Below are positions 434-15,094 of a DNA stretch of 29,086 nucleotides, in pieces. The stretch lies in IMG/VR virus record IMGVR_UViG_3300032291_000339, positions 1 through 29,086 of that record. The stretch is one strand, 5' to 3'. The notes under the pieces were generated by a model. That model made no database searches and was not told where the DNA came from. It saw nothing but the letters and a program-made list of their open reading frames with translations. Each line of letters starts with the position of its first letter. Position 1 is the first letter of the stretch. The translations under genes were made by a program, and so were the position numbers. This stretch comes from a virus.

Positions 434-606
434 ACCAGATTGCCCATCCTGGTACCCATTGCATTCAGTCGATTATGTTTACGACTCGCCTCGGCGCTTT
501 GCCTCGCTCATTTCGTCTTGCATGATTAAAGGCGCGCCGATCTACCCACGTTGCCGTGTGTCACCAACTGCCGTGCGAATGGCTTAGGTCGTGCTACTAG
601 CCGATT
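434..606 (-). ncRNA. candidate structured RNA or packaging element upstream of HNH-terminase (copy 1)
   Basis: This noncoding segment lies between VRR-NUC and HNH. Bases 470-606 align without gaps to 14958-15094 with about 20 differences in 137, and no reading frame survives in both copies. Read on the minus strand: hairpin 1 (589-563) has a GCC/GGC inner stem; hairpin 2 (558-547) is CACG-GCAA-CGTG; hairpin 3 (531-502) pairs CTTTAATC with GAGCGAGG imperfectly; hairpin 4 (453-434) is ACCAGG, 8-nt loop, TCTGGT. The other copy has CCC/GGG in hairpin 1, CTCG-GTAA-CGAG in hairpin 2, and three changed base pairs in hairpin 4. Both tetraloops of hairpin 2 are GNRA type. A cos/pac site or a 5' leader RNA are alternatives. 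Confidence 0.6.
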
Positions 607-607
607 G

Positions 608-952
608 TTACTGTCTGGGATTGCTTAAGGTGTAGAGAATGTACTCCATGTCGCTGGGCTTCCATACCGCCGCATGACATCCAGCCATCTCGCAAGCGTT
701 TAACCAAATCTTTTGTCCAGGCGTCAACTTGCCCTTTTCTGCCTTTAACTCAATGACCAACGGCCGACCGCCTTGGAATGGGTGCACCATGAACAGATCA
801 GGAAACCCCGCATCGCCTTGGACGTTTGTCATCCAGCGTCCTCGACTGTTCTGTGCCGGCAGATCGTGATGCACTAACCAGCCGTAACGCTTCGCAACGC
901 TGATCACCATGTCCTTAAAGTCTGCTTCGCTGATCTTGGAATCAATCTTCAT
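608..952 (-). CDS. VRR-NUC domain nuclease
   Basis: This small (about 114 aa) PD-(D/E)xK nuclease is of the VRR-NUC type, a family of Holliday-junction-resolvase-like, structure-specific endonucleases. The core motif is complete: GDAGFPDL with the catalytic Asp, then VIELKAEKGKLTPGQ with the E-x-K pair, and a C-terminal VWKPSD strand typical of the family. I chose the start at 952 (MKIDSK) over an ATG four codons upstream because it aligns with the start of the unit A homologue (MKLHSE). It overlaps the stop of the coiled-coil gene before it. It is the last gene of unit B and probably resolves branched or concatemeric phage DNA before packaging. Confidence 0.85.
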   Translation of the reverse strand: MKIDSKISEADFKDMVISVAKRYGWLVHHDLPAQNSRGRWMTNVQGDAGFPDLFMVHPFQGGRPLVIELKAEKGKLTPGQKIWLNACEMAGCHAAVWKPSDMEYILYTLSNPRQ

Positions 953-1154
953 CAGCAGGCACAATTCTTTTGTTATCTGCTAACCATTCCCACGCTTGCG
1001 CCAACTTCTGCCACGTTTCGCGACTTGCCTCTAAGTCTTTATACCGTTTTTCTAGCAATGCTTTTTCAGCGCGCAACGTGTCAATCACACCGCGCAAATA
1101 CTCAACTATTTCAATCGAAGTTGCCCCAGTTTGTTTCTCATCAAACGCGCTCAT
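942..1154 (-). CDS. small coiled-coil protein
   Basis: This 70-aa protein of unknown function is largely predicted helix. The middle (about residues 15-50) is rich in Leu, Glu, Lys and Arg with heptad-like spacing, suggesting a coiled coil. Its ATG overlaps the TGA of the preceding gene (ATGA) and its end overlaps the VRR-NUC start. Unit A has a 47-aa protein in the same slot with the same overlaps but little sequence identity, so the position is conserved more than the sequence. A partner of the neighbouring recombination protein is possible but is inference. Confidence 0.7.
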   Translation of the reverse strand: MSAFDEKQTGATSIEIVEYLRGVIDTLRAEKALLEKRYKDLEASRETWQKLAQAWEWLADNKRIVPADED

Positions 1155-1696
1155 TTCAGGCGCTCAATAATTTTGCTTGCCTCATGAGATTTCAACAGCT
1201 CAAGAACCGCGCTGTCATCGTTGAGGTTAAGTTGAATCATCTCCAACAGGGCAAGATCGTCCATGCCTTTGTCTTTTGCTAGTTTCTTGATGTAGCCAAT
1301 TTGCTTAGGTGTAGCAAATGCGCCAGAGGGTGTGTGCACTTGCGGTTGTGGTGTGCCACCTAAACGCTCGACCTTTTGCATTTCTTCGCGCGACGGCCTT
1401 GGCCCATTGCCTTGCGACTGGATAGAACTGTTGCTAATTGCGCGGCCAATTGAACTGGTCTCTCCGTTTTCGCACCAGGATGTCATATTGACCCCGCGTT
1501 CAGATCGTTGCTCATGGGCGTAGCCAACTGACATTGGTTTGGCATCATCAAAGTGTCTGTACAGCTCTGCACGGAATACGCACGAATCGCCGTCATAGTT
1601 CATCATGCAGGTCTCAATACGACCGTTCGGATATGCAGCCCAAAATCTGACTAGACGCTGTTCTACGGTTTCATAGTTGCTTAAATCAAAGCCCAT
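1151..1696 (-). CDS. probable phage ssDNA-annealing/recombination protein
   Basis: The N-terminal half (LSNYETVEQRLVRFW..., then GETSSIGRAI) resembles a family common in actinobacteriophages that is often annotated as Erf-like or ssDNA-binding/annealing protein. The C-terminal part (ATPKQIGYIKKLAKDKGM, then a helical segment) is a second small domain often attached to such proteins, joined by a Pro/Gln-rich linker. I set the start at 1696 (MGFDLSNYET) because its ATG overlaps the previous stop (TGATG) and matches the unit A start; an ATG at 1711 would add five residues. With VRR-NUC it forms the only visible DNA-processing module. The family name is from memory and the exact biochemical role is uncertain. 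Confidence 0.65.
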   Translation of the reverse strand: MGFDLSNYETVEQRLVRFWAAYPNGRIETCMMNYDGDSCVFRAELYRHFDDAKPMSVGYAHEQRSERGVNMTSWCENGETSSIGRAISNSSIQSQGNGPRPSREEMQKVERLGGTPQPQVHTPSGAFATPKQIGYIKKLAKDKGMDDLALLEMIQLNLNDDSAVLELLKSHEASKIIERLK

Positions 1697-2094
1697 CAGA
1701 TGCCCGCCCAAACGCTTAAACGTTGTGCATGGTCATGCGCGCCACCGCGATTCGCATAAGCCAGTTCGCCTGTGTTGCGAATAATGCCTCGACGCGCAGC
1801 TGCGTTTAGGCGTCCAGCGATGCCTTTGGTGACAGGGAACTGATCGCCCAGGTGCTTCCAAATGTCGTCAGATGTGAAGAAGCCTTTAGTCCGCGCAACG
1901 TGCACAATGGCAGCGTCCACTTCGTTTTGTTGTGGTCGTGTCCAGCGCGCATCAGCTGATGATTGTGATGCCAGCATGCCCTCAATGAATGGAGCGTTCT
2001 TTGGTGCCGGCACACGGCCATCACAGATGAAGTGTGTTTTGCCTGTAATTTCTGGGTAGGCGATTGTTGTTTTGCAGATCGTGCAGTTTGCCAT
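1696..2094 (-). CDS. zinc-ribbon and winged-helix-like protein
   Basis: This 132-aa protein starts with a probable zinc knuckle: C4 and C7 (CTIC) plus C24 near HFICDG. A stretch from about residue 55 to 110 then looks like a winged helix (VDAAIVHVARTKGFFTSDDIW, then GRLNAAARRGIIRNTG). Such proteins usually bind DNA or act as small regulators in phages. The unit A counterpart (16189-16509) keeps the helix-turn-helix-like part but has no cysteine cluster. The stop overlaps the start of the annealing-protein gene by one base. The function is inferred from fold-like features only. Confidence 0.6.
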   Translation of the reverse strand: MANCTICKTTIAYPEITGKTHFICDGRVPAPKNAPFIEGMLASQSSADARWTRPQQNEVDAAIVHVARTKGFFTSDDIWKHLGDQFPVTKGIAGRLNAAARRGIIRNTGELAYANRGGAHDHAQRLSVWAGI

Positions 2095-2115
2095 TGTCGG
2101 AATGTCCTTTGTCGG

Positions 2116-2379
2116 TTAGGAATGTGCTTGTAGTGCTTTGATTGCTAAGTCGAGTGTAGTCACATCGTAAAGCGGCATCGGGTCTTCTAGTGATAGCGAG
2201 TTTTTCATCGCGCGCAATCGTTGAATGATGCTTGCGTGAGGGTTCTGGCTAACTGCCATAATCTCGTCCATCAGACCCATGATTGCTGTGGTGTGATTTG
2301 TTTGCATTGCTTGCTCCAATATCATTCGTCGGGTTTCTTCTGATAATTCGCCTTGATTCCATGCAACGCCTTCGCTCAT
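2116..2379 (-). CDS. conserved small phage protein
   Basis: An 87-aa protein with no recognised domain. It is well conserved in unit A: both copies begin MSEGVA and share NQGEL, AIMGLMDEI, NPHAS and a C-terminal AIKAL(Q/G)AHS. I chose the start at 2379 rather than 2391 because MSEGV aligns between units and its ATG overlaps the stop of the upstream lysozyme-like gene (ATGA). It looks like a soluble, mostly helical protein. Its place between the lysis and recombination genes gives no clear role. Confidence 0.7.
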   Translation of the reverse strand: MSEGVAWNQGELSEETRRMILEQAMQTNHTTAIMGLMDEIMAVSQNPHASIIQRLRAMKNSLSLEDPMPLYDVTTLDLAIKALQAHS

Positions 2380-2885
2380 TTGACTGACCATGGCCCCCAG
2401 CCGAAGCCGTAGCGTCCGACACCGTAGTTATATATTTCTAAACCTGCGCGCAAATTAGTTACAGGGTCTAACAGACTTTTCTTGCCTGTGATCAGACCTT
2501 TTGCTGTAAGCCATTTCTGCCAACCGCCCCAGTTGATCTGCAGCAATCCGTAAGAACCGCCAAATGGGTCTTTGCGATTAACCGCGTTAGGTGTGCAATT
2601 GGATTCGCGCTTCATAATTGACTCCAGCACGGTGCGTTGATCTGCAGGCCAGCCAAGGTTGATTGCAAGCGCGCTGAACTGCTCGCAAGCGGTCGTGTAC
2701 GGGTCAATGTAAATTGTGGAACTGGTGGTCGTGGTCGGCTCAATTAGGTACGGCTGGACGCTTATCGGTGCCAAGGCGATGGTGCCAGATGGGGCGCTAG
2801 ACGCGCTAGGAGCCCCTGTGAGCGCCGTAACCCCAAAAACCGTACAAAGCACTAGCCCAATGATTTTTTCTGCTAAATAGTTCAT
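2376..2885 (-). CDS. exported lysozyme/SLT-like muralytic enzyme
   Basis: The start at 2885 has a good Shine-Dalgarno (GGAG six bases upstream) and gives 169 aa. Residues 8-25 form a hydrophobic signal peptide or membrane anchor, followed by a Ser/Thr/Pro-rich linker. The catalytic domain carries a goose-lysozyme/transglycosylase-like core: E94 in KRESNC is the probable catalytic acid, followed by GGSYGLLQIN and a C-terminal GLEIYNYGVGRYGFGWGPW. It would cleave peptidoglycan glycan strands outside the membrane. Unit A has a close homologue. With the peptidase endolysin upstream it gives each unit two wall-degrading activities. Whether it acts in lysis or at entry cannot be decided from sequence. 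Confidence 0.8.
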   Translation of the reverse strand: MNYLAEKIIGLVLCTVFGVTALTGAPSASSAPSGTIALAPISVQPYLIEPTTTTSSTIYIDPYTTACEQFSALAINLGWPADQRTVLESIMKRESNCTPNAVNRKDPFGGSYGLLQINWGGWQKWLTAKGLITGKKSLLDPVTNLRAGLEIYNYGVGRYGFGWGPWSVK

Positions 2886-3058
2886 CTTTTCTCCAAAGGT
2901 ATGGGCACACCCCAAGACGAGGCGTGCGATCTGAATGCGATTTGTCCCTGTAAGTATTTTCCCGACTCGGGTTCAGTAAAGATCTGCACGAGGATCTCTT
3001 GCCCGTTATCCATTACGCCTATGTAGACGCTGTAGTCAACGATCTGTGGATCAGTCAT
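2882..3058 (-). CDS. small conserved protein between the lysis genes
   Basis: This 58-aa protein was found by translating the gap between the two lysis enzymes. It shares PQIV(D/N)YSVY, MDNGQEILVQIFT, GQIAFR and SSWGVP with the unit A copy (17233-17409). It has no signal peptide or membrane segment. It starts at ATG 3058 after an AAGG-type ribosome-binding site, and its stop overlaps the ATG of the exported lysozyme gene. Strong conservation of both ends between the units supports that it is real. The function is unknown. Confidence 0.75.
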   Translation of the reverse strand: MTDPQIVDYSVYIGVMDNGQEILVQIFTEPESGKYLQGQIAFRSHASSWGVPIPLEKR

Positions 3059-3098
3059 ACCTTGTCCTTTTGTCGGTACTCCGACCTTAGGGGATAGG

Positions 3099-3623
3099 TC
3101 AAGCCTTCGGTGGGATTTCCCCGAACACCTTTAAGAATGCGGCTTTAACCCAGATCACCGAGTCTGCAGCTTGTGGTGTGATCTCAATGTGGAACCAGTC
3201 GCCTGGCACGCCGTGCATAGTTTCTTTGGTGTATGTCAACCACGTTTGACGATCGCATCTCCAGCCTCGACCATGCGGGCCGATGTAGTCAAGAATGCAT
3301 TGCAAGCCAAGATCGTTGGCATTAGCAACCAGTTTGTCAATAAAGACCAACGCATCTTTACGTCCTGCTTTTGGGTGTTTCTCGCTTTTGCGATATGACA
3401 GATCAACAGCTCTGCCAGTTGCGTGAACCGACAATGAACCAGGCTTGCCGCGCATGTCACGTTGACCCCAAGAACCGTTGTTCCACAGCGCGCCATTTGA
3501 TGCAGCGATTGCTTGCTTTATCCATTCGTTCATGCCGGCACGTGGTGCTGGTGATGCGCCGTCGGCGTTGCCAATGTAGTCGCGTGCGTTTGGCACGCCT
3601 TCTTTAGCTTTGGCTATTGCCAC
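3099..3623 (-). CDS. endolysin, M15-type peptidase
   Basis: The protein (about 174 aa) has the motifs of peptidase M15 (VanY/D-Ala-D-Ala carboxypeptidase-like) endolysins. SVHATGRAVDL supplies Zn ligands H67 and D74, and GDWFHIEI supplies the last ligand H145 with E147 close by. There is no signal peptide, as expected for an endolysin released through a holin. I prefer the GTG at 3623, which matches the GTG start of the unit A copy; a TTG at 3629 also exists. The start lies inside the end of the holin-like gene, so translation is probably coupled. A short C-terminal tail (SVIWVKAAFLKVFGEI) is shared by both units. Confidence 0.85.
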   Translation of the reverse strand: MAIAKAKEGVPNARDYIGNADGASPAPRAGMNEWIKQAIAASNGALWNNGSWGQRDMRGKPGSLSVHATGRAVDLSYRKSEKHPKAGRKDALVFIDKLVANANDLGLQCILDYIGPHGRGWRCDRQTWLTYTKETMHGVPGDWFHIEITPQAADSVIWVKAAFLKVFGEIPPKA

Positions 3624-3801
3624 GACCAAATGCCAAGTCTTTTGGGTTCACATATCGGATGAGAACTGGCACAAGCGCGGCGAGCGCTGCTTTGCCTAGA
3701 TCGGCTGGGTCTGTGTTGCCTGTTGAGTACACCGCGATAACCGCTGCAATTACCGAACGACCGTATGAGGCAAGTAGGGCTTTGTCTTTAGGCTTCAACA
3801 T
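3604..3801 (-). CDS. putative holin
   Basis: This 65-aa protein has two short hydrophobic segments (about residues 15-27 and 38-50) around a polar turn (GNTDPADL), ending with RYVNPKDLAFGRG. The composition, size and position immediately before the endolysin fit a small class II-type actinophage holin. Unit A has a clear homologue with the same KPKDKA start and NPKD end. It overlaps both neighbours, which implies coordinated expression of the lysis genes. The call rests on topology and context. Confidence 0.7.
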   Translation of the reverse strand: MLKPKDKALLASYGRSVIAAVIAVYSTGNTDPADLGKAALAALVPVLIRYVNPKDLAFGRGNSQS

Positions 3802-4063
3802 CTTTGGCTCCTTCTTTCGCTTTTGACTTTAGCCCGTTTGAGGCCACTAAGCCTGACAACGTGCCGGTCATAAAGACGGTCAGGGTTGATAGCAGGTCTA
3901 TGAATGCGGAGTCATTAGGGCTTTGATGTCCGATCGGCTGCGTCACAAACATGAGCGCATAGACAAAGCCAAGAACGGTGATGGCAAACACGCTGGCGAG
4001 GATGATGCCGACAACAACGATTAGTCGAGCGTGGAGCTCCTCGGGTTTAAGGCGTGGTCTCAT
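3788..4063 (-). CDS. small membrane protein, possibly second holin or antiholin
   Basis: This 91-aa protein has two clear transmembrane segments: IVVVGIILASVFAITVLGF near residue 15-38 and a second at about residue 57-75 (LLSTLTVFMTGTLSGLVA). The C-terminal tail is charged. It overlaps the holin-like gene by 14 bases. Unit A has an unrelated 54-aa, single-membrane-segment protein in the same slot, so this position is swappable. A lysis-timing role is inferred from location. Confidence 0.6.
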   Translation of the reverse strand: MRPRLKPEELHARLIVVVGIILASVFAITVLGFVYALMFVTQPIGHQSPNDSAFIDLLSTLTVFMTGTLSGLVASNGLKSKAKEGAKDVEA

Positions 4064-4244
4064 AAATCAAATCCCGTGTGCATGTGCCAGATGGGTTGCA
4101 GATCGGTGGTTCGCATTCAGGCTTCTGCCAGTTGGCTGGGTCTTGGCATGGGTAGCGATATGAGCCGTCATAACCACATCCCGCGCAACCCCACAAGACA
4201 ACTGCGATAAGCATGCCGTATCCGATGAGGTAACGCCAGCGCAC
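4047..4244 (-). CDS. small Cys-rich exported protein, possible lipoprotein
   Basis: This 65-aa protein starts with GTG, which overlaps the TAG of the gene before it by one base. Residues 5-22 form a signal sequence ending in a lipobox-like GCAGC, so C23 could be lipid-modified. The mature part is Cys- and Pro-rich (YPCQDPANWQKPECEPP, ICNPSGTC). I recall similar short proteins in environmental phages but no assigned function. Nothing comparable is present in unit A. An envelope role such as interference with other phages, or a lysis accessory, is speculation. Confidence 0.6.
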   Translation of the reverse strand: MRWRYLIGYGMLIAVVLWGCAGCGYDGSYRYPCQDPANWQKPECEPPICNPSGTCTRDLIYETTP

Positions 4245-4567
4245 TACTTTTTCTTAGTTGGTGCAGGTGGGTATGGGTTTGCGTCTTTGATTGCTTGAAC
4301 TGCTGCTTCCCATGCGGCTTGCGTATTTGTTCCGCGTTGCCACTCAAAAAACAAACCGTCAGATTGCGCTTCGTATTGTGTGCGGCGAGTTGTTTCGATA
4401 ATTGCAACTTGGTTGTTGTAATTCACTTGCGGCCATGCGGCGTCTAGTTCGGCTTGCGATGGTTTAGGTGTTTCGTCTAACCATGTAAGACCGTCATAGG
4501 TTTCGCCGTCTAAGGCCCATTGGGTGCCGGGATAATTGGCGTTTAGAATTAGTGCGTAGTCAATCAT
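4244..4567 (-). CDS. tail-fibre-associated conserved phage protein
   Basis: This 107-aa protein starts MIDYALILNANYPG and contains DGLTWLDETPKP and LFFEWQRG. This pattern recurs in many environmental phages next to tail-fibre genes, where it is usually left as a hypothetical protein or called a fibre-associated protein. It has no membrane segment. The start overlaps the stop of the fibre-like gene (ATGA). Unit A has a different 77-aa protein in the equivalent place. A role in fibre assembly is inferred from position only. Confidence 0.55.
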   Translation of the reverse strand: MIDYALILNANYPGTQWALDGETYDGLTWLDETPKPSQAELDAAWPQVNYNNQVAIIETTRRTQYEAQSDGLFFEWQRGTNTQAAWEAAVQAIKDANPYPPAPTKKK

Positions 4568-5085
4568 GCGCTGATTTCCATAACTGTGATTGAACTAAAC
4601 CCGCCATAAGTGGTATCCAAACCACGACGATTTACATATAAAGTGCCTGTGTTGCAGACGCCTTGGATTTTGTAAGTTGTTGCAGAAATAGTTGCTGGAC
4701 TATCTAAAAAAGTTACGCTACTTGAAAAAAATTGATTTCCGTAACTAGAAGACGACATACCAAAACCATTAAAAATTCCACTTCCCGAAGTACCAGCCGC
4801 AATTGCTGTTGAATCGCGCATAAGTCGCAACATTCCATCGCCACCACTTTGACCGAGTACAACAGTTGAAAAAACTAGGATTTTGTTAGTTGTTGCTGAT
4901 GGAGTGATTGAAACACTCAAATCAGTTATATCAACAAATGTCGCGCTAGTCGTGGTAAAGGTATTCGCTTTTGTTGCTTGCACGACTTGCAGAACACGAA
5001 ACGCGCCACGCAAATTATTCATTTGTGCAGCGGTCAAAACCTGCCCAGCGGTAAAACTGGCTGGAAGTGTTGTTGGTGTAGCCAT
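4564..5085 (-). CDS. tail-tip or fibre-like structural protein
   Basis: This 173-aa protein begins LPASFTAGQVLTAAQMNNLR, a short N-terminal motif seen in many phage tail-tip proteins and shared in style with the unit A fibre (FVANQILTASQMDTL). The rest is Ser/Thr/Gly-rich and predicted beta-strand, without Cys pairs or enzyme motifs. It has a clear Shine-Dalgarno (AGGAG) before its ATG and follows the minor tail protein gene. It is less than half the length of the unit A counterpart. It is a likely receptor-binding component. Confidence 0.6.
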   Translation of the reverse strand: MATPTTLPASFTAGQVLTAAQMNNLRGAFRVLQVVQATKANTFTTTSATFVDITDLSVSITPSATTNKILVFSTVVLGQSGGDGMLRLMRDSTAIAAGTSGSGIFNGFGMSSSSYGNQFFSSSVTFLDSPATISATTYKIQGVCNTGTLYVNRRGLDTTYGGFSSITVMEISA

Positions 5086-5093
5086 AAGTGCTC

Positions 5094-6383
5094 CTATCCT
5101 AAAACATTTTCTTCGTCGATGGTGCCATACACGGCGTCATCCAAAATCAGCTCATAGACGATCGTGGTTGGCGCGGTTGAGTACAGCACACGGTGGCCTG
5201 TGCTGAAGTCCAGATAGTGCTCGATGCCCTCAACCGAGAGCTCTTGCGCCAATTCGGTCGTGCCGGCGCCGCTTGGAAATGTCTTTTCTACGGTAATGGT
5301 GTCGCCTATTTCTAGGGTTGCCAAGGTGTCTTTTTGGGCTGTAGTCAGCATTAGAAACGCGGTTTCTACTGACGTGTATCGGGCTTCTGGTTCAGGGTTA
5401 AGCAGGTAGGCAGCTGCGGCGTCAATAGATGGTTGTTCGTGTAGCAGACTGTTGGTAATGCTGTTGGTTTGTATAAAGTACTGTGCAATTGATGCCAGGT
5501 CTGATGCGGTTGCGGTGTTGCCGTTTAAGCCTGTTACGACCGCGCGATTGATCACCGAGTCCGCTTCAAACGAGATGCCTACGCCACGGTATTTGTAGTT
5601 TGTGCCGTCATCGTGAAAATCAGCAACCGATGCCGACAGGGTGTTGCCAATGCGGTCTTGGAATGTAAGCACACCATCACGCGACATGAACAAGCGCCCA
5701 AACTCGGCCGTGTCGTTAATCTGGGTTAAATATTGCAACACGTTCGTTCCTGCCGGCACGGTGTATGCAGCGGCATGGCCGAGGTCTACGGTGCCAGTTG
5801 AGATGTTGCGGGCTAGGGCTGGGAAGTCAACTTCTGGCAGATCTAAGACGGTTTCTATGCGTTCGCCTGATGTTTCGGTGGTGACGTTTAGTTCGTCTAA
5901 ATAGGTTTGTGCTAGTAGGTAGAATTGGTCAGCGCAATAGACGGTCACGGTGTCCAGACCGCCAAGCGCAAAATTGTAGTCATAGTTCACGACATAACCC
6001 GAATAAAGCAATTCAGGTACATCGGTAGAGCTGTATCGAATCAGTTTGACTTCGCGCATAGGTGCAAGCCCAGGCTTAGATTCCGCGGTGTCGTAATACG
6101 GGCTGTTTTCGTCAAATGGGTTGAACACGCCGTCAACGTCTTGGATGGTGAATGTCATCGTGCCAGCGCTAAACGTATCGCCAATGTCGCGTCGGCCGCG
6201 CTTAGCGGTGATCGTTGTTACCGAATCCATAACGCTTGCAAACTCGGTTGTACCGTCCAGCACGTACTGGGTGTTATCTAAGATGCCTTTGGTTGCCGAG
6301 TCAAGAGTAAACCCGTCTTGGATAAATCCTGTGGCGATCTGCAGGTCATAGTTGCCTGAATCAACAACAGCTGTGCCGGGCAT
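5094..6383 (-). CDS. minor tail protein (tail tip/hub)
   Basis: This 429-aa protein follows the tape measure gene directly, sharing one base of its stop (TGATG). The beta-rich N-terminal part contains RGRRDIGDTFSAGTMTF and NPFDENSPYYD, and the central part AQTYLDEL and LDLPEVDFPAL. All are strongly conserved in unit A (19713-20987), as is the C-terminal TTIVYELILD. Position and length fit a tail-tip/hub protein of a minimal siphovirus. No catalytic motif is visible. Confidence 0.8.
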   Translation of the reverse strand: MPGTAVVDSGNYDLQIATGFIQDGFTLDSATKGILDNTQYVLDGTTEFASVMDSVTTITAKRGRRDIGDTFSAGTMTFTIQDVDGVFNPFDENSPYYDTAESKPGLAPMREVKLIRYSSTDVPELLYSGYVVNYDYNFALGGLDTVTVYCADQFYLLAQTYLDELNVTTETSGERIETVLDLPEVDFPALARNISTGTVDLGHAAAYTVPAGTNVLQYLTQINDTAEFGRLFMSRDGVLTFQDRIGNTLSASVADFHDDGTNYKYRGVGISFEADSVINRAVVTGLNGNTATASDLASIAQYFIQTNSITNSLLHEQPSIDAAAAYLLNPEPEARYTSVETAFLMLTTAQKDTLATLEIGDTITVEKTFPSGAGTTELAQELSVEGIEHYLDFSTGHRVLYSTAPTTIVYELILDDAVYGTIDEENVLG

Positions 6384-7699
6384 CAGGCAATGTTCAGAGC
6401 CAACGGCCCTGCACTCCGTGAATAGGCGCGCAAAGCGTTGACCACGGCTTGACCAATCTCTGCGCTAGTTGAGAGTCCGCCTGTGACGTTGACGGTCACT
6501 CCCCCGCCAGTATTCATGCGGTCTAACGGCACTACGGCTTCTGGGCCTGCTTCACCGATTAAGGCAAGAGTAGGGGAGCTGACGATTCCACCCTCGGCCA
6601 TGCGCGGCAGGTTCATGCGACTTGCTGCTTGTGTAGCCGAGTTGCCACCGATGCTAGGCAGATTGACGTGGGCAATGGTATTGATGTCTGGCGCAATTGG
6701 AATGGCGTTATAGGCGCGAATGATGCCGTTGACCATCATGATTGCACCGTTAACAACAGACTCAAATGCGCCGAGAATGCCGTTAATTATTGCGTTGACG
6801 CCAGTCTTAAACCAGTCAAACTTGTTGTACGCGACGACTAGCGCGGCGACTAGTAGCGCGACGCCTGCAGCGATCAGGGTAAATGGGTTCATGGCCATGG
6901 CAATGTTTGTGGCGACGATTGCGGCGGCGACAAGTCCGATAGCCCCAGCGATAGCTAAGAATGCTTGAGGGTTATCTTGAGCCCATGCAGCAAACTCGTT
7001 AAGTACAGGCAACACGGCTTCAAGCACGGGCAACAGCGCTGCACCGATTGACTCTTTGGTTTCACCAATAGAGTTAGACAAGATTTTCATTTTGCCTGCA
7101 GCGGTTTCGGCGCTAGTTGCTGTAGCCCCGCCAAAGGTTCCACCGAGCACGTCCATGACTTCGTTCAGGCTTGCGCCTTCCTTGATCATCGTTGACATCT
7201 CTGGGCTCAATGATCGGAGCGCCTTAAAGTTGCCCTGGTATGCCTTGGCGAGTGCGTCAGCGACGCTGGCAGAATCCATGCCGGTGGCCGTGCTGATGTC
7301 CATGACAAGGTTCATGTCGTTCATGGCAATGCCAACGTCTTTGGTACCGCGCACAAGTGCTTCTAAGGCTTTGCGGTATTCGGTGTCGGCAACGCCAGAC
7401 GCTCGACTCATTGCGCTGATCTGCTTCTCAACCTGCGCGGTCTGAGCGGCGCCAGCACCCGTCACATTTTGCAGGGTAAGCGCTAACGCTGCTTGTTCTT
7501 GCTGGTCTTCCATTGCAGCGCGTGTGGCATCGCCTAGGGCTATTGCTAAACCGCCGAGCGCGGCAGCTGCGGGAACGGCAGCCTTCTTGATAGCAAACTG
7601 GGCTTTTTCGCCTGTCGTTTCAAGTTGCTTGAATTGGGCAATAGCCTTCTTTATCCCTTTGCCGTCAAACTCGCTGATGATCGGGATATTGATTGCCAT
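6383..7699 (-). CDS. tape measure protein
   Basis: This 438-aa protein is helical at the N-terminus (DGKGIKKAIAQFKQLE), with the tape-measure-type segment QGNFKALRSLSPEM, FGGATAT and several hydrophobic stretches (about residues 245-290). The C-terminal EGGIVSSPTLALIGEAGPEA is a signature common at the end of tape measure proteins. Using the usual rule of about 1.5 angstroms per residue, the tail would be at most about 65 nm, very short for a siphovirus. The start shares a base with the upstream stop (TAATG). The unit A homologue has 465 aa. Confidence 0.9.
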   Translation of the reverse strand: MAINIPIISEFDGKGIKKAIAQFKQLETTGEKAQFAIKKAAVPAAAALGGLAIALGDATRAAMEDQQEQAALALTLQNVTGAGAAQTAQVEKQISAMSRASGVADTEYRKALEALVRGTKDVGIAMNDMNLVMDISTATGMDSASVADALAKAYQGNFKALRSLSPEMSTMIKEGASLNEVMDVLGGTFGGATATSAETAAGKMKILSNSIGETKESIGAALLPVLEAVLPVLNEFAAWAQDNPQAFLAIAGAIGLVAAAIVATNIAMAMNPFTLIAAGVALLVAALVVAYNKFDWFKTGVNAIINGILGAFESVVNGAIMMVNGIIRAYNAIPIAPDINTIAHVNLPSIGGNSATQAASRMNLPRMAEGGIVSSPTLALIGEAGPEAVVPLDRMNTGGGVTVNVTGGLSTSAEIGQAVVNALRAYSRSAGPLALNIA

Positions 7700-8241: not shown

Positions 8242-8243
8242 AA

Positions 8244-8653: not shown

Positions 8654-8683
8654 TGTTCTCCTATGTCGGCTTGGAGCCGTTGA

Positions 8684-9112
8684 TTATGCGGTGGTATCAA
8701 CCGAGTACGTGCCCCCTTGGAGCTCGATCTCGTAAACCGAAAGCTCACCCAAGGACGCGTTCACGACAGGCAGGCTAGAAAAATAAGTATCTGTCAAAAT
8801 AAACCCTGGATTAGTCGCCGAATCAGCAGCGCTTGTTGGGTTTACTTTGACGGTGCACTTAGTGCCAAGCAACGGTGCAAGAACTGCGTACGACTCTGAC
8901 GCTGCATACGACGCGTACACAGTCAAGGTCAATGAGTTGCTGAACAAGCCTGCAGTCATGGTGCGCGATGTCTGGCCAAATGCGGTGTCTTCAAGAGCTT
9001 CCGCTGTAACCGTCAACGTCGCTGCGCTGACCTGATCGGTGATGTCAACAATGGTGCCGATTGCGGTTCCAATTTTGACTGTTGGGTTCGAGAGGTAAGT
9101 TGATGCTGGCAT
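8684..9112 (-). CDS. major tail protein
   Basis: This 142-aa beta-rich protein begins MPASTYLSNPTVKIG. It shares SNPTV/ANPVI, TAFGQTSR-like, TNPGFILTDT, LGEL and a final GTYSVD with the unit A copy. Small beta-sandwich proteins in this position, just before the chaperone frameshift gene, form the tail tube of siphoviruses. It has an AAGGAG ribosome-binding site. The 56 bases upstream of it (9113-9168) show no gene or clear motif. Confidence 0.85.
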   Translation of the reverse strand: MPASTYLSNPTVKIGTAIGTIVDITDQVSAATLTVTAEALEDTAFGQTSRTMTAGLFSNSLTLTVYASYAASESYAVLAPLLGTKCTVKVNPTSAADSATNPGFILTDTYFSSLPVVNASLGELSVYEIELQGGTYSVDTTA

Positions 9113-9168
9113 GTTTGCTCCTTAAGTTCTGATCTGATAGTAGATGATTTGTATTCGGTAGTAGTGGA

Positions 9169-9531
9169 TTATGCGGTCTGGGCTTGAATAGCGCAATCAA
9201 GGTCATAGCACGGGTACAACGCGCCACCGATCTCAAGGCTTGATGGACGGCCAGCCATAACAATGATCGGCGAGCCAAGCACACTTGCAACAATGCTCAA
9301 GATCGAGCGGAGCACCGGCAAACCTGCAGGCCCAGAGCCAATGACCTTAATTGGGAACTCAAGGCGCACAATGTTGCCGTTGCCAGCAAACGTGGTGAAG
9401 TTTGGCGCGTCTAAATAGACCGAGTTAGGCACAAGTTTTGTTGGGTCATTGATTACTCGAAGACCAGACACAGCGGTCAGCGTCGCGGTGACGTCATCAA
9501 TCGCTTCGTTGAACAGGTCGGTGTACGACAT
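9169..9531 (-). CDS. tail terminator-like / head-tail joining protein
   Basis: This 120-aa protein contains VINDPTKLVPNSVYLDAP and GRPSSLEIGGALYPCYDL, both closely matched in unit A (VVNDPRNIVPP, GRPTNIDIGGTVLPAYEL). The size, alpha/beta pattern and position between the connector and the major tail protein fit a tail terminator or neck protein. The start overlaps the stop of the connector gene by one base. The precise role is inferred from synteny. Confidence 0.65.
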   Translation of the reverse strand: MSYTDLFNEAIDDVTATLTAVSGLRVINDPTKLVPNSVYLDAPNFTTFAGNGNIVRLEFPIKVIGSGPAGLPVLRSILSIVASVLGSPIIVMAGRPSSLEIGGALYPCYDLDCAIQAQTA

Positions 9532-10163
9532 TAAGCAACCGCTGGACGTGGGATGCCAAGCAGCTGCTTGACGATCGGGGTCAGGCTTTGCTGTGGTGCC
9601 GAACCCATGCCGTCAAACGTGGCGTAGGTTGCCTCTATTGAGCCTCTGGAGCGCCACAGAGCGGCGCAATACATCAAAGTGCCCAATGTGACGTCACCGC
9701 CAGGTGAGGTCGTTAGAGAGTCAATATAACCGCTCTCTTGACGCCTGCGATAGCAGAACTGGTTGCCAGCCGACACCGATTGCGTGAGCAACGTGTAATC
9801 GTCTGACGGGTTGGCAATGGTGATGCCAAGGTAAGACATGACCTGCGCGGCCGTCACCCAAGTGCAAACAGGGTCATAAGCAACGGTGCCAGACGCGGCG
9901 ACACGCTCGACATCGCTTGCGGTCTTGGCGTAAAGCACCTGGTCGGCAATTGGCACCTGATAGTCGTAGAGCAAATCGCCTTCGGTATCAATGCCAATAA
10001 ACAAATACTGTGGCAATGCGCGCACAGTAAAAGTGCCATTAAATGTTGCGTCAACAGAAGCAACCGTGATTGAACTGCCGACTGCAATCTCCGATGGGGT
10101 CAGGAGTTGCAGTACGGCAAAGTTGTCAATCAGGTACTTGTTAGTAACTGTGTAAGTAGCCAT
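9531..10163 (-). CDS. head-tail connector (gp6-like) with extra N-terminal domain
   Basis: This 210-aa protein appears to have two parts. Residues 1-95 are a beta-rich segment (VDATFNGTFTVRALPQYLFIG) not typical of connectors. Residues 100-210 are the helical head-tail connector-like domain (WVTAAQVMSYLGI, FCYRRRQESGY, LGTLMYCAALWRSRGS). Both parts are conserved in unit A. It follows the capsid gene closely, with a hairpin covering its ribosome-binding region. The function is attachment of the tail to the portal. Confidence 0.7.
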   Translation of the reverse strand: MATYTVTNKYLIDNFAVLQLLTPSEIAVGSSITVASVDATFNGTFTVRALPQYLFIGIDTEGDLLYDYQVPIADQVLYAKTASDVERVAASGTVAYDPVCTWVTAAQVMSYLGITIANPSDDYTLLTQSVSAGNQFCYRRRQESGYIDSLTTSPGGDVTLGTLMYCAALWRSRGSIEATYATFDGMGSAPQQSLTPIVKQLLGIPRPAVA

Positions 10164-10178
10164 GGCGGTTAAGCCGCC
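10164..10178 (-). promoter_or_regulatory. hairpin over the connector ribosome-binding region
   Basis: The minus strand reads GGCGG-CTTAA-CCGCC directly against the ATG at 10163. The likely Shine-Dalgarno (AAAGG) runs into the 5' arm. This could lower connector translation relative to the capsid protein just upstream. Unit A has a strong unobstructed AAGGAGG at the same place, so this is not conserved. Confidence 0.4.
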
Positions 10179-10184
10179 TTTCTA

Positions 10185-11249
10185 CTAGGCCTGGGTGATC
10201 TTGCGAATCATTCCTGGAATTGCAGCAAAGGTTGACACGAAGCCGTGGAATGACATGTTGCGTCCCAAAACTGCAGGATTCTCAAATGACTGCAATCCAC
10301 GAATTGACTCGTAGAACTCGTAGGCATCGCCTGCACCTTGACCAACGCGGGTGATAATCATGGTCTTGGCAGCGAAGTTGCTGTCAACTACAAGCTGCAA
10401 GCCAAGTGGGTTGCCGTTCCATGAAGTTGCACTCTGCGAACCTGCAGCATTGTAACCGGACAGACCGTTTGCAATCAATGGGAAAATTTGACGGCCCGTT
10501 GTGTCTGCAAGCTGGCCGAGTTGCGCCCAGACATCAACTGACACGAACATGTGAGTTGGCAACCAGTTGCGGTTGCTTGAAATGTCGCTTGCGGAGTCGT
10601 ACACGCTCTTTAGCAAGTCGGCAACTGTTCCGTCCCAAACGCCTGACGAAGTTGCTGCGGCGAGCAAGTTGTCTGCAGCCAAGTTGTCAGATGCAATCAT
10701 GTATTCGCCCATGAGGTCATTCAAAATCAGAGACATTGCTTCGGGGCTCGTGAACGAAATATCTTGTGCGGAGAGGGTGACCTGTCCAGCAAGTGTGGTT
10801 TTTGTAACCGAGTTTGCCGCAATAACCATTGTGGTTGCAGATACTGCAGACAATTCGGTTGACTGTGTTGCGACGCTGGTGTGCGTGGTGATTGTTGGAC
10901 GTGTAAAAGTTTTTTGCTGACCGTTGTCTGGGTAAGCGCGGGCACCTACTGCTTCGACTACTGGACGCAAAAAGTTCAGGTCTTGAACCAATGGCCCAAG
11001 AACTGGAACTGGCAAAAGACCAGGTGTGTCAGTTGTTAGCACGTCACCTGCAGCTGCCTGCAATGCGGTGCGCTTTGATGCGGTGTGTTCTGCTACTGCA
11101 GCGTTCATGTTCTTAAACGTGTCGCCACCGATGTGGTAAGCGGCCATAAATTCGCCTGCGCTTGGCAATACGAACTCACGCTTGGCTTGTGCGAAAATTG
11201 GTGCGGTTGGGATTGTTGCCTCAACTGCTGGAACGGTTACTTCTGACAT
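10185..11249 (-). CDS. putative nested free major capsid protein (internal start)
   Basis: An ATG at codon 178 of the protease-capsid fusion (MSEVTVPAVE) is preceded by AGGAG nine bases upstream. The same arrangement, with an even stronger AGAGGAG, exists in unit A at 25871. Initiation here would yield a 354-aa capsid protein without protease, which could set a suitable protease-to-capsid ratio. A 17-base identical stretch lies 31 bases upstream of both ATGs. This is an inference; the residues encoded by the Shine-Dalgarno (Glu/Ile) could be conserved for other reasons. Confidence 0.5.
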   Translation of the reverse strand: MSEVTVPAVEATIPTAPIFAQAKREFVLPSAGEFMAAYHIGGDTFKNMNAAVAEHTASKRTALQAAAGDVLTTDTPGLLPVPVLGPLVQDLNFLRPVVEAVGARAYPDNGQQKTFTRPTITTHTSVATQSTELSAVSATTMVIAANSVTKTTLAGQVTLSAQDISFTSPEAMSLILNDLMGEYMIASDNLAADNLLAAATSSGVWDGTVADLLKSVYDSASDISSNRNWLPTHMFVSVDVWAQLGQLADTTGRQIFPLIANGLSGYNAAGSQSATSWNGNPLGLQLVVDSNFAAKTMIITRVGQGAGDAYEFYESIRGLQSFENPAVLGRNMSFHGFVSTFAAIPGMIRKITQA

Positions 11250-11780
11250 AGGTTCTATCTCCTGTTCTGGGACTACTTCTTCATTTAACACTACTTCTTC
11301 TGGCTCTTGGTGGATACTCGCTGCGACGGTGGCGATGTTGGCCATGTCGCCAAACGCGCCGATCGGAACGAGCGACAGCTCTGTCCAGTCAGCTGCTTCA
11401 ATGATCATTGTGCCCGCTTCGTCGTATGAGAATTTGGTTGGGTTTACGCCAACAGATACTTGGTCAATCGTGCCATCGGCAGCCATAACTAGCGCGTCGT
11501 TGCCAAGGCTGGTTGCGCTGATCTTGGCGGTGAAGAGCATTGCCTCATCTGTTGACACACGTTCTTGGACTACGCCGACTGGCATGCTGGCGTTGTGGTA
11601 CATAAAAAGACGTGGTGCTTTGCCCTCGATTGGCAATGAGCCTGGACGGAAGATTACTTGGGTTCCATCGGACACAGTTGCCGGCACGTTGTAGGGAACG
11701 GCTGTTCCGCTGATTGTGCGTCGCGGCGCGTCACCTTTGGCGGCGTCCAGCGTGAAGTCTCCTGCGATTAGTTTGATCAT
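10185..11780 (-). CDS. prohead protease-major capsid protein fusion
   Basis: This 531-aa polyprotein has residues 20-155 as a HK97-type prohead protease (family S78): RRTISGTAVPYNV at the start, catalytic H62 in MYHNASMPVG and S109 in DQVSVGV. An acidic, scaffold-like linker (about 160-180) leads into the HK97-fold major capsid protein, from about PSAGEFMAAY to the end. Protease-capsid fusions are known in very small actinophages. The protease would cut itself and the linker during capsid maturation. An internal start within the linker (11249) may also make capsid protein alone. The start overlaps the portal stop. Confidence 0.9.
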   Translation of the reverse strand: MIKLIAGDFTLDAAKGDAPRRTISGTAVPYNVPATVSDGTQVIFRPGSLPIEGKAPRLFMYHNASMPVGVVQERVSTDEAMLFTAKISATSLGNDALVMAADGTIDQVSVGVNPTKFSYDEAGTMIIEAADWTELSLVPIGAFGDMANIATVAASIHQEPEEVVLNEEVVPEQEIEPMSEVTVPAVEATIPTAPIFAQAKREFVLPSAGEFMAAYHIGGDTFKNMNAAVAEHTASKRTALQAAAGDVLTTDTPGLLPVPVLGPLVQDLNFLRPVVEAVGARAYPDNGQQKTFTRPTITTHTSVATQSTELSAVSATTMVIAANSVTKTTLAGQVTLSAQDISFTSPEAMSLILNDLMGEYMIASDNLAADNLLAAATSSGVWDGTVADLLKSVYDSASDISSNRNWLPTHMFVSVDVWAQLGQLADTTGRQIFPLIANGLSGYNAAGSQSATSWNGNPLGLQLVVDSNFAAKTMIITRVGQGAGDAYEFYESIRGLQSFENPAVLGRNMSFHGFVSTFAAIPGMIRKITQA

Positions 11781-12904
11781 GATGCGATCTCCTCTTGCGT
11801 GTTTTCTTGAATGTTTATTTCTTCTCTGTCCATGCTGTCGGCCATGAAGTTTTCTTCTAGATATTCGTGCGCGTCAAACTCCACGTATGTTCCGCGCGGT
11901 AGCACGTTGTCCATTGACAGCGCGCCAGCAATTGCGTCGGCATACAACTTCACGCCGAACAAGTAAAGGTCTGCTCGAGCCTGCTGACTTGATTGGTAAC
12001 TGTATGCGCCAGTAGCGACCCCGACGAGGTAAGGCGGGACCGATGCGATTCTGGACATCTCAAGACTTTGGTATTGCGATGCTTCAATCAACAGCATTTT
12101 GTCAGGTGTTGAATTGGTTTCTGTGTAAGACAAATACTCATTTAGCGCGGCGGTCTGATTAGTTGCGCGCGCCGCATTAAACGCCGATGCAAGATCAGCA
12201 AGTTCTTGCGCGCTTAACGGTTCACCACCAGTTTGTTTCAAGACGCCCGCTGGAATTGATGAGCTGGCGTTACGATTGCGCGCTGCTTCAAGTTTGAGCG
12301 CGGTTTCAATTGCGCTTTGCGATGAATAAATCAAGCCTTGCGCTGGTGACAAAAATTGAATCAAGTTTGCTGGGTCAATTTCTCCGCCTTGGAAATAAAC
12401 CTGTGAAGACGGGGCAAACCAGACGGGACCTGACTGATCGGTCGTGGTCACGCTGCCGGCAGGCAACCTCGTCATGGAAGCAGGCATGCCGTCAGCCGTT
12501 CTCGAAGTCACATACCAAAAAGCTCTTCCGAACATCATTAAATCGTCCAGAGTAAAACTCATGAGAAATTGATACGGAACAGTTGGGTCTGGTCGGCGCA
12601 ACCACGAACGCGGAGCAAGATATTCCTTCTCCATTTTTGTTTCTGCTTCGTTCCACACTTCTCGGTACATTCTTAATGGCATTGAGCCGATAGTTGACGC
12701 CATGAGATTTCGTGCACGTGCAATCGTTGGCACGGACATTGCAAGGTTGCGCGCTTCGCCTTCGCGGTAGGTGTAGTACTGGCCGATCATGTTGACGCCA
12801 ACATTTGAGGAGGAGTAACCAGGCGCGAAGCCACCAGCTGCAGCCGCTTTAGTTGGCGCAGGGCTAATTGCTGCCTTACTTATTTTGCGATCAAATAATC
12901 CCAT
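11777..12904 (-). CDS. portal protein
   Basis: This is a HK97-gp3-like portal of about 375 aa. Conserved stretches shared with unit A include ATKxMSVPT-like text near residue 55, MYREVW, LAPRSW, GRAFW, QFLSP, RNASSSIPAGVLK, NQTA and VPPYLVGV. I set the start at 12904 (MGLFDRK) because it matches the unit A start and has AGGA upstream; an ATG at 12937 would add 11 residues lying in the intergenic stem-loop. It forms the dodecameric DNA channel at the capsid vertex and is the docking site for terminase. The stop overlaps the start of the protease-capsid gene. Confidence 0.88.
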   Translation of the reverse strand: MGLFDRKISKAAISPAPTKAAAAGGFAPGYSSSNVGVNMIGQYYTYREGEARNLAMSVPTIARARNLMASTIGSMPLRMYREVWNEAETKMEKEYLAPRSWLRRPDPTVPYQFLMSFTLDDLMMFGRAFWYVTSRTADGMPASMTRLPAGSVTTTDQSGPVWFAPSSQVYFQGGEIDPANLIQFLSPAQGLIYSSQSAIETALKLEAARNRNASSSIPAGVLKQTGGEPLSAQELADLASAFNAARATNQTAALNEYLSYTETNSTPDKMLLIEASQYQSLEMSRIASVPPYLVGVATGAYSYQSSQQARADLYLFGVKLYADAIAGALSMDNVLPRGTYVEFDAHEYLEENFMADSMDREEINIQENTQEEIAS

Positions 12905-12926
12905 AGTCCTACTTTGCCATATAAGT

Positions 12927-12981
12927 GGCAACCGCACGAGACTTATCCGATTCCGACAAAAGGCAAGAACGTGCGGTCGCC
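12927..12981 (-). promoter_or_regulatory. conserved stem-loop between terminase and portal (unit B)
   Basis: A 12-bp stem (12981-12970 with 12938-12927; one G-U pair) encloses a 31-nt loop containing GTCGGAATCGGATA. Unit A has a stem of similar length at 27624-27613/27578-27567 made of different bases, but a loop with the same core (one base different in that stretch). Such covariation points to a structured RNA, perhaps a leader controlling portal/capsid translation or an RNA processing site. A rho-independent terminator is unlikely because no T-run follows. Confidence 0.6.
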
Positions 12982-12991
12982 GACGAGAATG

Positions 12992-14761
12992 TTACTGGTT
13001 GACGGCCACCAGCATGGGTTTACCCGAGGTAACTGGACGGGCACACATGCCAATTCCCCAGACCATTGTGCGCGCTAACTCAATAGGCCCAGGTGATCGT
13101 TTGCTAGAGAGCACAATTGTGTTGTCGGTGCGAACAGCAACGGCGCGCTGGACATGTTCAGCCAACAGTTTTTCGCCTGTATGCAGTAAGCGTGCTTCGG
13201 CGATCATGTTCTTGGCGAGCGGTGTAAACCGTCCAAGTTCTGCATAACCAACGACGACTCGGCGGCGCTCAATGTTTGGTGGGCATGTTGCGTCCACGGT
13301 TGGCGACAAGGCAAACCTGATCGTCGGGTCTTTTGCTAGTTCTTGCACGTTGTCCCACAGCTCTGTGATTGACTCGGCAATGAATGCCACGGTGACAAGC
13401 ACCCGACCGTCTGACAGGTTGACGCATCTGGTCGCGCTGTATCGGGAGTCGTCCAGCGAAGATTCGATTGCCACAACGCCACCGCTAGGGATGTCCCCTG
13501 TGTATTCCAAGGAGGGCCAGCGCCCTGGCTCAATCCATCCGCGCACAACACTCACCCAAAGGTTTAAGGATGCGCGCAAGAACGATGCCCGATCAGGGTT
13601 AGTGGATTCTTGCCTAATTGTGTCCATGTCCAACGTGTGGCCGAGCGCAGGATTACCCCACGCCCAGGATGCAGGATGCAACGGGTCAAGGCTTGGGTCA
13701 GGTGACCATTCCGCCATGTACATCGTTGACGGTGTTCCCTTGTCAATCGCTCGAATGCCCGCTTCTCTCCAGCGCGCGAACAACACGGATTCCTCGGTGC
13801 CAGCTGTGCTGAAGAAACAAGCCAAAGGATTTTTGCGTGCGCGCTGTGCCGGCAACAGACCGCCTTCAACCGAGTCAGGGTTGACGTCAAACAACTCGTC
13901 CACGATCACCAAGTCAATGCTCATACCGTGACCTTGGTTTGGCTTCAATGCTTTGACCCACCACTTGCTGCCGTCTGGCATGGTGGCCTGATAACGGCCG
14001 TACGACTTGACAATCTTGGCACCGTAATACTCCTCAAGAATTGGAGCAAGATCATCAAACAACAAACACGCAAGATCGAGTCTGTGCGCGCCCGAAACAA
14101 CAGTTTGTTTACCGCCACGTATCTTGGGCATCTCTACAAGCCAAAACAAGATTAGCGCCTGGATGATTGTGGTCTTGCCATTTTGACGTGCAACCGAAAC
14201 AAGGCTCGAGCGATGCACAAACTTCTGATCGGCGTCCACGGCCAGCATTCCCTCAAGAGCATGTAGTTGCCAAGGCATCAAATCAATCTGCAGCACCTGT
14301 TTTGCCATGTCCCCCACAAGTCCAGCTAGTGACCCGGCATGGTCTGGCATCATCGTTTCCAGTCTTGGCCGATCGTGGCCAGTTGGCGCTGGTTCAGGCT
14401 GGTTCGGGCTGGTTGCGACAAAAACATGGATGGGGCTCGGGGTCGTGTCTTGCCCTCCCAAAAAACGAACATTTGTTCGCTCGTCGTTTGTTTCGCTTCG
14501 GTTGAGTATTTCGTTTCGTGTTTGTATTCGCTGGGCGTCGCGTTTATTTTTGAACGTTGCTCCGCGTGAACTATTACAAGGCTTACAACTTGGGATCATA
14601 TTGTCGAGTGTTGAATCTCCGCCGGCCGCGATCTCTAATAAATGATCGGCGGTTGTTGCCGGTCGTTTCCTGCACCAATGGCAGATAGGACCATCGCGAA
14701 GGATTAGTTCTCGGTTCCGTTTGTATGTTGTTGAGTCGTATTCGCTGGGCTTGCGTGTCAT
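12992..14761 (-). CDS. HNH endonuclease-large terminase fusion
   Basis: This 589-aa protein combines two normally separate packaging proteins. Residues 1-75 are an HNH domain (C27/C30, D39-H40, N54, C59/C62). Residues 76-130 are a low-complexity linker. Residues 145-589 are a large terminase: Walker A-like VSVARQNGKTT (191-198), Walker B VIVDEL (D288-E289), then a RNase H-like nuclease half with VVAIESSLDDSRY and PTVDATCPP. It would pump and cut concatemeric DNA, with the HNH part aiding cleavage. The frame is continuous, and the terminase part aligns throughout with the terminase at 27636-29086. Its ATG overlaps the stop of a short leader-like frame. Confidence 0.9.
   Translation of the reverse strand: MTRKPSEYDSTTYKRNRELILRDGPICHWCRKRPATTADHLLEIAAGGDSTLDNMIPSCKPCNSSRGATFKNKRDAQRIQTRNEILNRSETNDERTNVRFLGGQDTTPSPIHVFVATSPNQPEPAPTGHDRPRLETMMPDHAGSLAGLVGDMAKQVLQIDLMPWQLHALEGMLAVDADQKFVHRSSLVSVARQNGKTTIIQALILFWLVEMPKIRGGKQTVVSGAHRLDLACLLFDDLAPILEEYYGAKIVKSYGRYQATMPDGSKWWVKALKPNQGHGMSIDLVIVDELFDVNPDSVEGGLLPAQRARKNPLACFFSTAGTEESVLFARWREAGIRAIDKGTPSTMYMAEWSPDPSLDPLHPASWAWGNPALGHTLDMDTIRQESTNPDRASFLRASLNLWVSVVRGWIEPGRWPSLEYTGDIPSGGVVAIESSLDDSRYSATRCVNLSDGRVLVTVAFIAESITELWDNVQELAKDPTIRFALSPTVDATCPPNIERRRVVVGYAELGRFTPLAKNMIAEARLLHTGEKLLAEHVQRAVAVRTDNTIVLSSKRSPGPIELARTMVWGIGMCARPVTSGKPMLVAVNQ
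14466..14479. promoter_or_regulatory. LexA/SOS-box-like palindrome inside the HNH-terminase linker
   Basis: CGAACATTTGTTCG matches the CGAAC-N4-GTTCG core of Gram-positive (including actinobacterial) LexA operators. It lies within the coding sequence for the linker between the HNH and terminase domains, in a stretch absent from the visible unit A sequence. There is no adjacent promoter that I can recognise, so it may be chance. Confidence 0.3.
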
Positions 14762-14835
14762 ACTCCCGCGCCTTCGGCTTGGGCTACCGCGGCGCTTGCG
14801 CGCCTTGCTCTCGTTGTTTGTTTGTTGTTTGTCAT
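14758..14835 (-). CDS. short leader-like ORF overlapping the HNH-terminase start
   Basis: A 25-codon frame beginning MTNNKQTT and ending AEGAGV has a TGA that overlaps the ATG of the HNH-terminase gene (ATGA). The same frame is open upstream to an ATG at 14946, giving up to 62 codons. It shares its MTN start, an Ala-rich AAVAQA segment, the overlap and an internal GGCGC-GCAA-GCGCC hairpin with the 282-347 frame. The final codons include GGGAG, which would serve as Shine-Dalgarno for the downstream gene. This suggests coupling between ribosome passage, hairpin opening and terminase translation. Real translation is unproven. Confidence 0.4.
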   Translation of the reverse strand: MTNNKQTTRARRASAAVAQAEGAGV

Positions 14836-14914
14836 GTCGGGCTCGACTCTCGCGTGTTGTTTGTTATCTATGTTTAGTTTAGTTGTGTAATGAAATGATG
14901 TTAATGAGCCTCCC

Positions 14915-15094
14915 ACCGTATAGCCCTTTACGGTTCCCAATTTCATTAACTATCGCTCGATTATGTTTACGAGCCGCCTCGACGCTTTGCCCGAACCATT
15001 TCGTCAAGCATGATTCGGAGCGCGCCGATCTACCCTCGTTACCGAGTGTCACCAACTCCCGAGCGAATGGGTTAGGTCGTGCTACTAGCCGATT
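14915..15094 (-). ncRNA. candidate structured RNA or packaging element upstream of HNH-terminase (copy 2)
   Basis: This is the second copy of the element at 434-606. Hairpin 1 spans 15077-15051 (CCC/GGG inner stem plus AA/TT and ACC/GGT helices). Hairpin 2 spans 15046-15035 (CTCG-GTAA-CGAG, a GNRA-type loop). Hairpin 3 spans 15019-14990 (TCCGAATC paired over eight positions to GGTTCGGG). Hairpin 4 spans 14934-14915 (ACCGTA, AAGGGCTA loop, TACGGT). Most differences from the other copy keep pairing or change only loops, and substitutions show no codon periodicity. It lies about 150 nt upstream of the HNH-terminase start. A structured leader RNA, a small trans-acting RNA or a cos/pac site are all possible. 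Confidence 0.6.

Follow-up and report, generated by a model that had tools for sequence, protein, structure and literature searches.

A new, probably pseudoknotted RNA family heading a gene cluster in very small tailed phages

The window analysed here, the whole 29,086-base stretch (29086) of an IMG/VR virus record, contains two copies of a noncoding element that, judging from covariation among its relatives, is almost certainly a pseudoknotted RNA of gene sense, ~100–195 nt in length. Copy 1 (417–605, minus strand; 222 bits, E 3.4e-67 with the covariance model R1 described below; included in alignments A3 and A4) lies after the VRR-NUC gene and before the HNH domain of one phage (A), and copy 2 (14898–15093, minus strand; R1 190 bits, E 3e-57) after the VRR-NUC gene of a second phage (B) and before the HNH part of an HNH-TerL gene. 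An earlier note, made from the sequence of the window, had placed the element at 434–606 and 14915–15094; this location stands, with slightly larger bounds and on the minus strand. The note's author did not recognise a known RNA family, in agreement with our search of Rfam 15, in which no covariance model matched the whole window up to E 5 or positions 260–640 up to E 10. We also found no paper that appeared to describe this RNA. Measured against Rfam and the literature searched, the element is a new RNA family without Rfam relatives.

The window comprises two complete and different phage genomes of ~14.5 kb, B followed by A, joined through their cos site at 14431–14440: phage B extends from 29086 to 14441 and phage A from 14430 to 1, and both window ends are cos ends too. 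The two units described in the earlier note are thus present, as two different complete genomes joined at cos. Both gene sets lie on the minus strand throughout and are of the small-siphovirus type, ordered TerL, portal, capsid-protease fusion, head-tail genes, tape measure, lysis genes, phrog_11717, VRR-NUC, element and HNH domain, where phrog_11717 is a conserved protein situated between the lysis genes and VRR-NUC. The VRR-NUC gene upstream of copy 1 (608–964, minus strand) matches Pfam VRR_NUC (6.3e-9), and the one upstream of copy 2 (15104–15439, minus strand) is its homologue. The HNH domain at the right end of phage A (1–318, minus strand) runs to the contig terminus at cos, TerL of phage B (27636–29086, minus strand) begins at the contig's cos end, and an HNH-TerL open reading frame (12992–14761, minus strand) is restored over the joined cos, with HNH from phage B and TerL from phage A. 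Short leader reading frames, recognised from the sequence, overlap the HNH start (ATGA) in both phages (MNPTTKMTNHNQQQGACAALAQAKRVR, 282–365, and MTNNKQTTRARRASAAVAQAEGAGV, 14758–14835, both minus strand), and a like arrangement was seen at the HNH starts of 38 of 57 relatives. An A/C-rich linker occupies about 370–415, beside copy 1.

The right end of B and A's own right end have only ~12 bases in common, which makes a simple k-mer walk improbable as the cause of the joining; it may have occurred in cells or in the library. We ruled out a composite virus with a tandem 14.5 kb array: both termini of the window are cos, as is the junction inside it, and monomer contigs occur that either stop at these same ends or are terminally repeated. 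In certain other contigs the sequence wraps after one genome length, at 75–100% identity, and single genomes with terminal repeats are also found as contigs. Metagenome contigs may be chimeric, as exemplified by the window and by G085, in which the terminase is joined to a tape-measure segment in inverted orientation; for this reason G085 was not accepted as a relative of the L210 clade lacking the RNA. Relatives are abundant in IMG/VR (270, 217 and at least 595 confirmed stretches), the locus counts among them being redundant.

The position of cos was fixed by contig ends. Contigs spanning it read CCC-CCGAGCCCCA-TCC, the ten bases CCGAGCCCCA (gene sense) occupying 14431–14440 within the HNH-TerL frame, and linear contigs lack these ten bases at either end. 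Among 146 distinct loci with the cos boundary no more than 400 nt from the locus start, 46 start exactly at this boundary, just before TerL. On the plain reading, the contig ends would be those of a cos whose 3' overhang of 10 nt was trimmed during library preparation. The reading frame runs on through cos as Pro-Ser-Pro, so that HNH and TerL form one gene only with cos closed. The terminase gene would then be split in two in virion DNA and become whole again only upon circularisation of the genome, a second unusual feature of these phages.

The two copies of the element align over 138 ungapped bases at 86% identity (~137 bases at ~85% in the earlier note). Their outer stem is formed by GAATGC/GCATTC in copy 1 and GTTAATG/CATTAAC in copy 2. 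The following parts are given for copy 1, all on the minus strand. Hairpin P2 (564–588), assigned by covariation, contains CC/GG and GCC/GGC, the latter replaced by CCC/GGG in copy 2; its loop UCGC (575–578) forms the predicted 5' side of the pseudoknot and pairs with GCGA after P4 (486–489), the 3' side, with compensation in relatives on both sides. Hairpin P3 (547–558) is closed by a GNRA tetraloop, changes from CACG-GCAA-CGTG to CTCG-GTAA-CGAG between the copies and is paired in 100% of cells, its most variable position showing four pair types. P4/P5 (491–540) displays a conserved apical GCAAGACGAA, and five of the seven P4 pairs are changed on both sides. P6 (468–485; loop TAAACATAAT), found by covariation analysis, is reduced or absent in distant members. 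In the P7/P8 hairpin (421–466; GGGCA loop), four of five P8 pairs are doubly changed and P7 shows double changes across clades. The four hairpins with compensatory changes that the earlier note had described (P2, P3, P4/P5 and P8 around GGGC) were therefore all recovered, while the outer stem and the pseudoknot had escaped it. The unpaired motifs GGGUAGA, GCAACACGAAA and GGGCAA are conserved in the element and suggest protein or tertiary contacts.

Together with the two copies in the window, 59 other distinct copies could be aligned (61 in all), and those covarying pairs that score highest and are almost completely paired are partners in nested helices. In A3, a MAFFT alignment of 32 relatives that was not fitted to any model, 92.7% of paired cells hold standard pairs, 188 cells have both sides changed compared to 57.8 in shuffles, and 19 of 37 pairs include such double changes; structures shifted by 1–3 columns gave 24–42% paired cells. 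The covariance model R1, built from the A3 set, matches relatives down to ~40% TerL identity (L264–L282; L210, E 1.8e-13; L212, E 0.0036; all E-values from covariance models are rough). The model-fitted alignments A4 (97.1% paired; 29/37 pairs doubly changed) and A5 (29 further distinct sequences; 95.4%; 25/37) are biased toward the model, and the weight therefore rests on A3 and on predictions across clades. Covariation is strong in most helices, and folding energy z-scores are weak (approximately −1.4 sense, −1.0 antisense), so that the proof of structure lies in covariation and not in stability alone. The selection on a folded nucleic acid proposed earlier is thus borne out by the covariation in A3, the slide controls and many homologues with compensatory changes, and the covariance-model search of viral metagenomes, a check suggested at the time, returned compensated relatives across clades.

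The pseudoknot between the P2 loop and the bases just after P4 was predicted with Alifold on A4. Over all clades, the loop/partner combinations are UCGC/GCGA, UCGC/GCGG, UUGC/GCAA, UUGC/GCAG, CUGC/GCAG and CUGA/UCAG; within the A4 set alone this pairing is nearly invariant, and its support comes from clade-to-clade comparison. The sequence fits a loop pairing that could form either within one molecule or between molecules. In the modelled helices of A4, read in gene sense, G-U/U-G pairs outnumber A-C/C-A combinations (55 vs 9), and P4 in A3 contains 25 G-U cells and zero unpaired cells. As G-U cells would be mismatches on the opposite strand, this points to selection on an RNA of gene sense instead of a folded DNA site. 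No conserved reading frame was detected among the 61 copies, whose anchor-to-anchor lengths take all three values modulo 3 and no one frame of which is open in the majority, extending the absence of a shared open frame observed in the two original copies; an overlapping or antisense gene was ruled out on this basis. A search for tRNA and tmRNA found none, which eliminated these identities for the element.

Upstream of HNH starts the element is nearly constant. It was found at all of 199 such starts (redundant loci having enough upstream sequence or a match), at 198 by profile HMM and at the last, L212, by the covariance model, and the clades of L210 and L212 both have it. When a short sequence pattern was used irrespective of genes, larger phages that lack HNH-TerL were recovered as well (L427, L436, L438, L440, L465, L489 and L491; model R2, E 9e-10 to 3e-12), one of them, a record of 39.5 kb with a terminal repeat of 123 bases, having the element within some 900 nt devoid of convincing genes. 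The earlier placement upstream of an HNH-terminase thus holds near almost every related gene examined, but the element is independent of HNH-TerL, which had gone unnoticed. Its place in the larger phages is the intergenic stretch flanked by leftward terminase genes on one side and rightward genes on the other; it points rightward there, and the first rightward gene is ~500–600 nt away. Genes for homing HNH proteins or methyltransferases can directly precede or follow it, and whatever gene comes next, the element heads a run of co-directional phage genes. The HEARO/omega RNA of IscB is likewise encoded upstream of an HNH-bearing protein, but matches to it were absent from the Rfam search, HNH is fused to TerL here, and our RNA also occurs without HNH. 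The HNH-TerL carriers are tiny freshwater bacterial viruses. By blastn against isolated-phage DNA, copy 1 gave chance-level matches only and two divergent versions gave none.

Given this position and independence of neighbours, we tentatively favour a leader that opens the gene cluster and acts in cis, a reading ranked just above, and about equally likely as, an origin RNA, which fits the exchange with initiators described below. The RNA would act in cis on the transcript that begins with it, which in the circularised genome would pass through HNH, the ligated cos, TerL and then the structural genes. Folding as it leaves RNA polymerase, it may alter how the polymerase (or ribosomes) handle the long transcript that follows, much as RNA antiterminators do. 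HK022 put and the Bacillus eps-associated (EAR/epsC) antiterminator RNAs are structured RNAs heading long operons; the element, which heads co-directional gene runs, may resemble them in this, and differs in having no Rfam match. A promoter scan revealed no conserved promoter just upstream of the element and no excess over shuffles; this and the ~500–600 nt to the first gene in the larger phages count against a cis-acting leader.

The RNA-less relatives (L294/L405, L303–L306 and G069) carry a replication-initiator-like protein in the same slot, with matches to phrog_4707 (to 6e-24), phrog_428, phrog_270 and DnaD-like proteins. That this slot holds an initiator-like gene and not another regulator suits a replication role better than a cis-acting leader. 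In a six-frame search, phrog_4707 was found in all six RNA-less records holding the region, exactly between VRR-NUC and HNH-TerL, and in none of the 41 RNA-bearing near-complete records. The HNH-TerL of L294 is 94% identical to that of L212, yet coupled to the initiator module in place of the RNA, which implies that such an HNH-TerL needs no adjoining RNA. It is accordingly possible, if somewhat doubtful, that the RNA is a replication origin or an origin-control RNA, a folded transcript that would prime or license replication with host enzymes and replace a protein initiator, like ColE1 RNA II, to which no sequence relation was found. No initiator, helicase or polymerase was found among the scanned right-arm proteins, and the long noncoding divergent region that houses the element in the larger phages would also be in keeping with an origin. 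On the other side, L427 has the RNA plus a nearby initiator-like HTH protein, which weakens strict mutual exclusion; no hybrid-forming repeat or primer site was identified, initiators of families not yet known could escape detection, and third-position GC skew, which was uninformative, shows no turn at the element.

Isolated small cos siphoviruses offer a further comparison. Arthrobacter AN/Atraxavirus, Microbacterium EE, Curtobacterium Root and Rhodococcus RRH1 share genomes of 14–17 kb, a fused capsid-protease, HNH at or near the right end and TerL near the left (PMC5513430, PMC7302621); the Root HNH is an unannotated frame read here from the sequence. The parts of these papers drawn on here describe the same architecture, with a fused capsid gene and, in cluster AN, no DNA metabolism genes, and mention no such RNA (PMC5513430, PMC7302621). 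Unlike the phages studied here, these isolates have genes between the left end and TerL, and Atraxa, Root and Nobel, searched in full with filters off, yielded only chance-level fragments of the element. In Kels and Root, an initiator resembling lambda O is encoded close to the right end (phrog_8540), in Root without an RNA match, as an origin RNA would lead one to expect; in Atraxa no initiator was recognised among the scanned proteins, and that place is occupied by a 784-nt noncoding gap at about 13592–14376.

A small RNA acting in trans on the host or a competing phage, with polymerase, ribosome, nuclease or a defence target as its partner, appears unlikely: the element is a discrete, neighbour-independent module with conserved unpaired loops, but no intrinsic terminator follows it and its fixed place heading gene runs would be unexpected. 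We consider still less probable the packaging RNA suggested in the earlier note, an analogue of the phi29 pRNA that would serve HNH-TerL instead of a small terminase. In HK97, cos cleavage is promoted by an HNH protein (GP74), and phi29 relies on pRNA in the absence of TerS (PMC9410871); this precedent explains an HNH adjoining cos here and calls for no RNA. As in phi29, a structured phage RNA lies near the genome end and no small terminase was recognised; the RNA is close to HNH, TerL and cos, and the four-nucleotide loop pairing could be intermolecular. Against this, Rfam gave no match to the pRNA family, the phage type is unrelated, and the RNA is not constant with HNH-TerL, whereas a phi29-type pRNA should accompany its motor in every case. 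L294, L303–306 and G069 possess HNH-TerL without the RNA, L294 and G069 sharing the cos-spanning form with no upstream small terminase, and the larger phages have the RNA without HNH-TerL, one with a terminase protein bearing a small-terminase-like N-terminus. RNA and HNH-TerL type thus separate in both directions, which disfavours packaging. Folded DNA at cos or pac, also suggested earlier, or an overlapping gene has next to no probability despite the nearby genome end, given the G-U bias, the lack of a conserved frame and the mapping of DNA ends through contig ends, which located the cut site at 14431–14440 and the contig ends, ~420 nt from the element and not within it.

With genomes of ~14.5 kb, these phages are near the smallest known for siphoviruses and frequent in metagenome collections, and nearly all of the group carry an elaborate, undescribed RNA. 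Its constancy, together with the swap for an initiator gene, raises a testable question: how replication or late transcription starts when no replication genes are recognisable in a tailed phage. It is conceivable, although we regard it as rather doubtful, that certain tailed phages among the smallest known have a pseudoknotted RNA as their replication origin, standing in for the protein initiator that occupies the same slot in their closest RNA-less relatives.

The window is made up of two complete and clearly distinct genomes, phage B (29086 to 14441) followed by phage A (14430 to 1), which are joined by a cos site (10-nt 3' overhang) at 14431-14440. Both ends of the window (1 and 29086) are likewise cos, and the lineages differ between the right end of B and the left end of A. 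More than one related unit was also found in other, window-like contigs of 17-30 kb (G012, G031, G007 and G084). Contig G085 (L406), in which an inverted tape-measure segment is fused to TerL, is an apparent assembly chimera.

A recurring TGACATA...AACAAAC box lies between the structured RNA element (417-605 and 14898-15093, minus strand) and HNH in L210, L280, L321, L346 and the linker regions of the window. In six loci (L037, L040, L057, L069, L073 and L003), inserted genes directly flank the element on its 5' or 3' side, encoding either homing-type HNH proteins or a DNA cytosine methyltransferase. In larger phages (L440, L465, L459, L427 and L436), an AT-rich TATATxTATGTATA-like box is located ~220-290 nt 3' of the element, possibly serving as a promoter or unwinding site. 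For the cultured Arthrobacter phage Atraxa (L290), in whose scanned proteins we recognised no initiator, a 784-nt noncoding gap (13592-14376) preceding the last two genes may be the site of an analogous RNA.

HNH itself is preceded by a short ORF of 25-27 codons (282-365 and 14758-14835; MNPTT... or MTNN...) containing G+C-rich hairpins. The stop codon of this ORF and the start codon of HNH overlap (ATGA), an arrangement found at 38 of the 57 HNH starts of relatives. The HNH-TerL gene (12992-14761) is cut by cos, as it is in related loci. In virion DNA the HNH part would lie at the right end and the TerL part at the left, with a single frame restored after circularisation.
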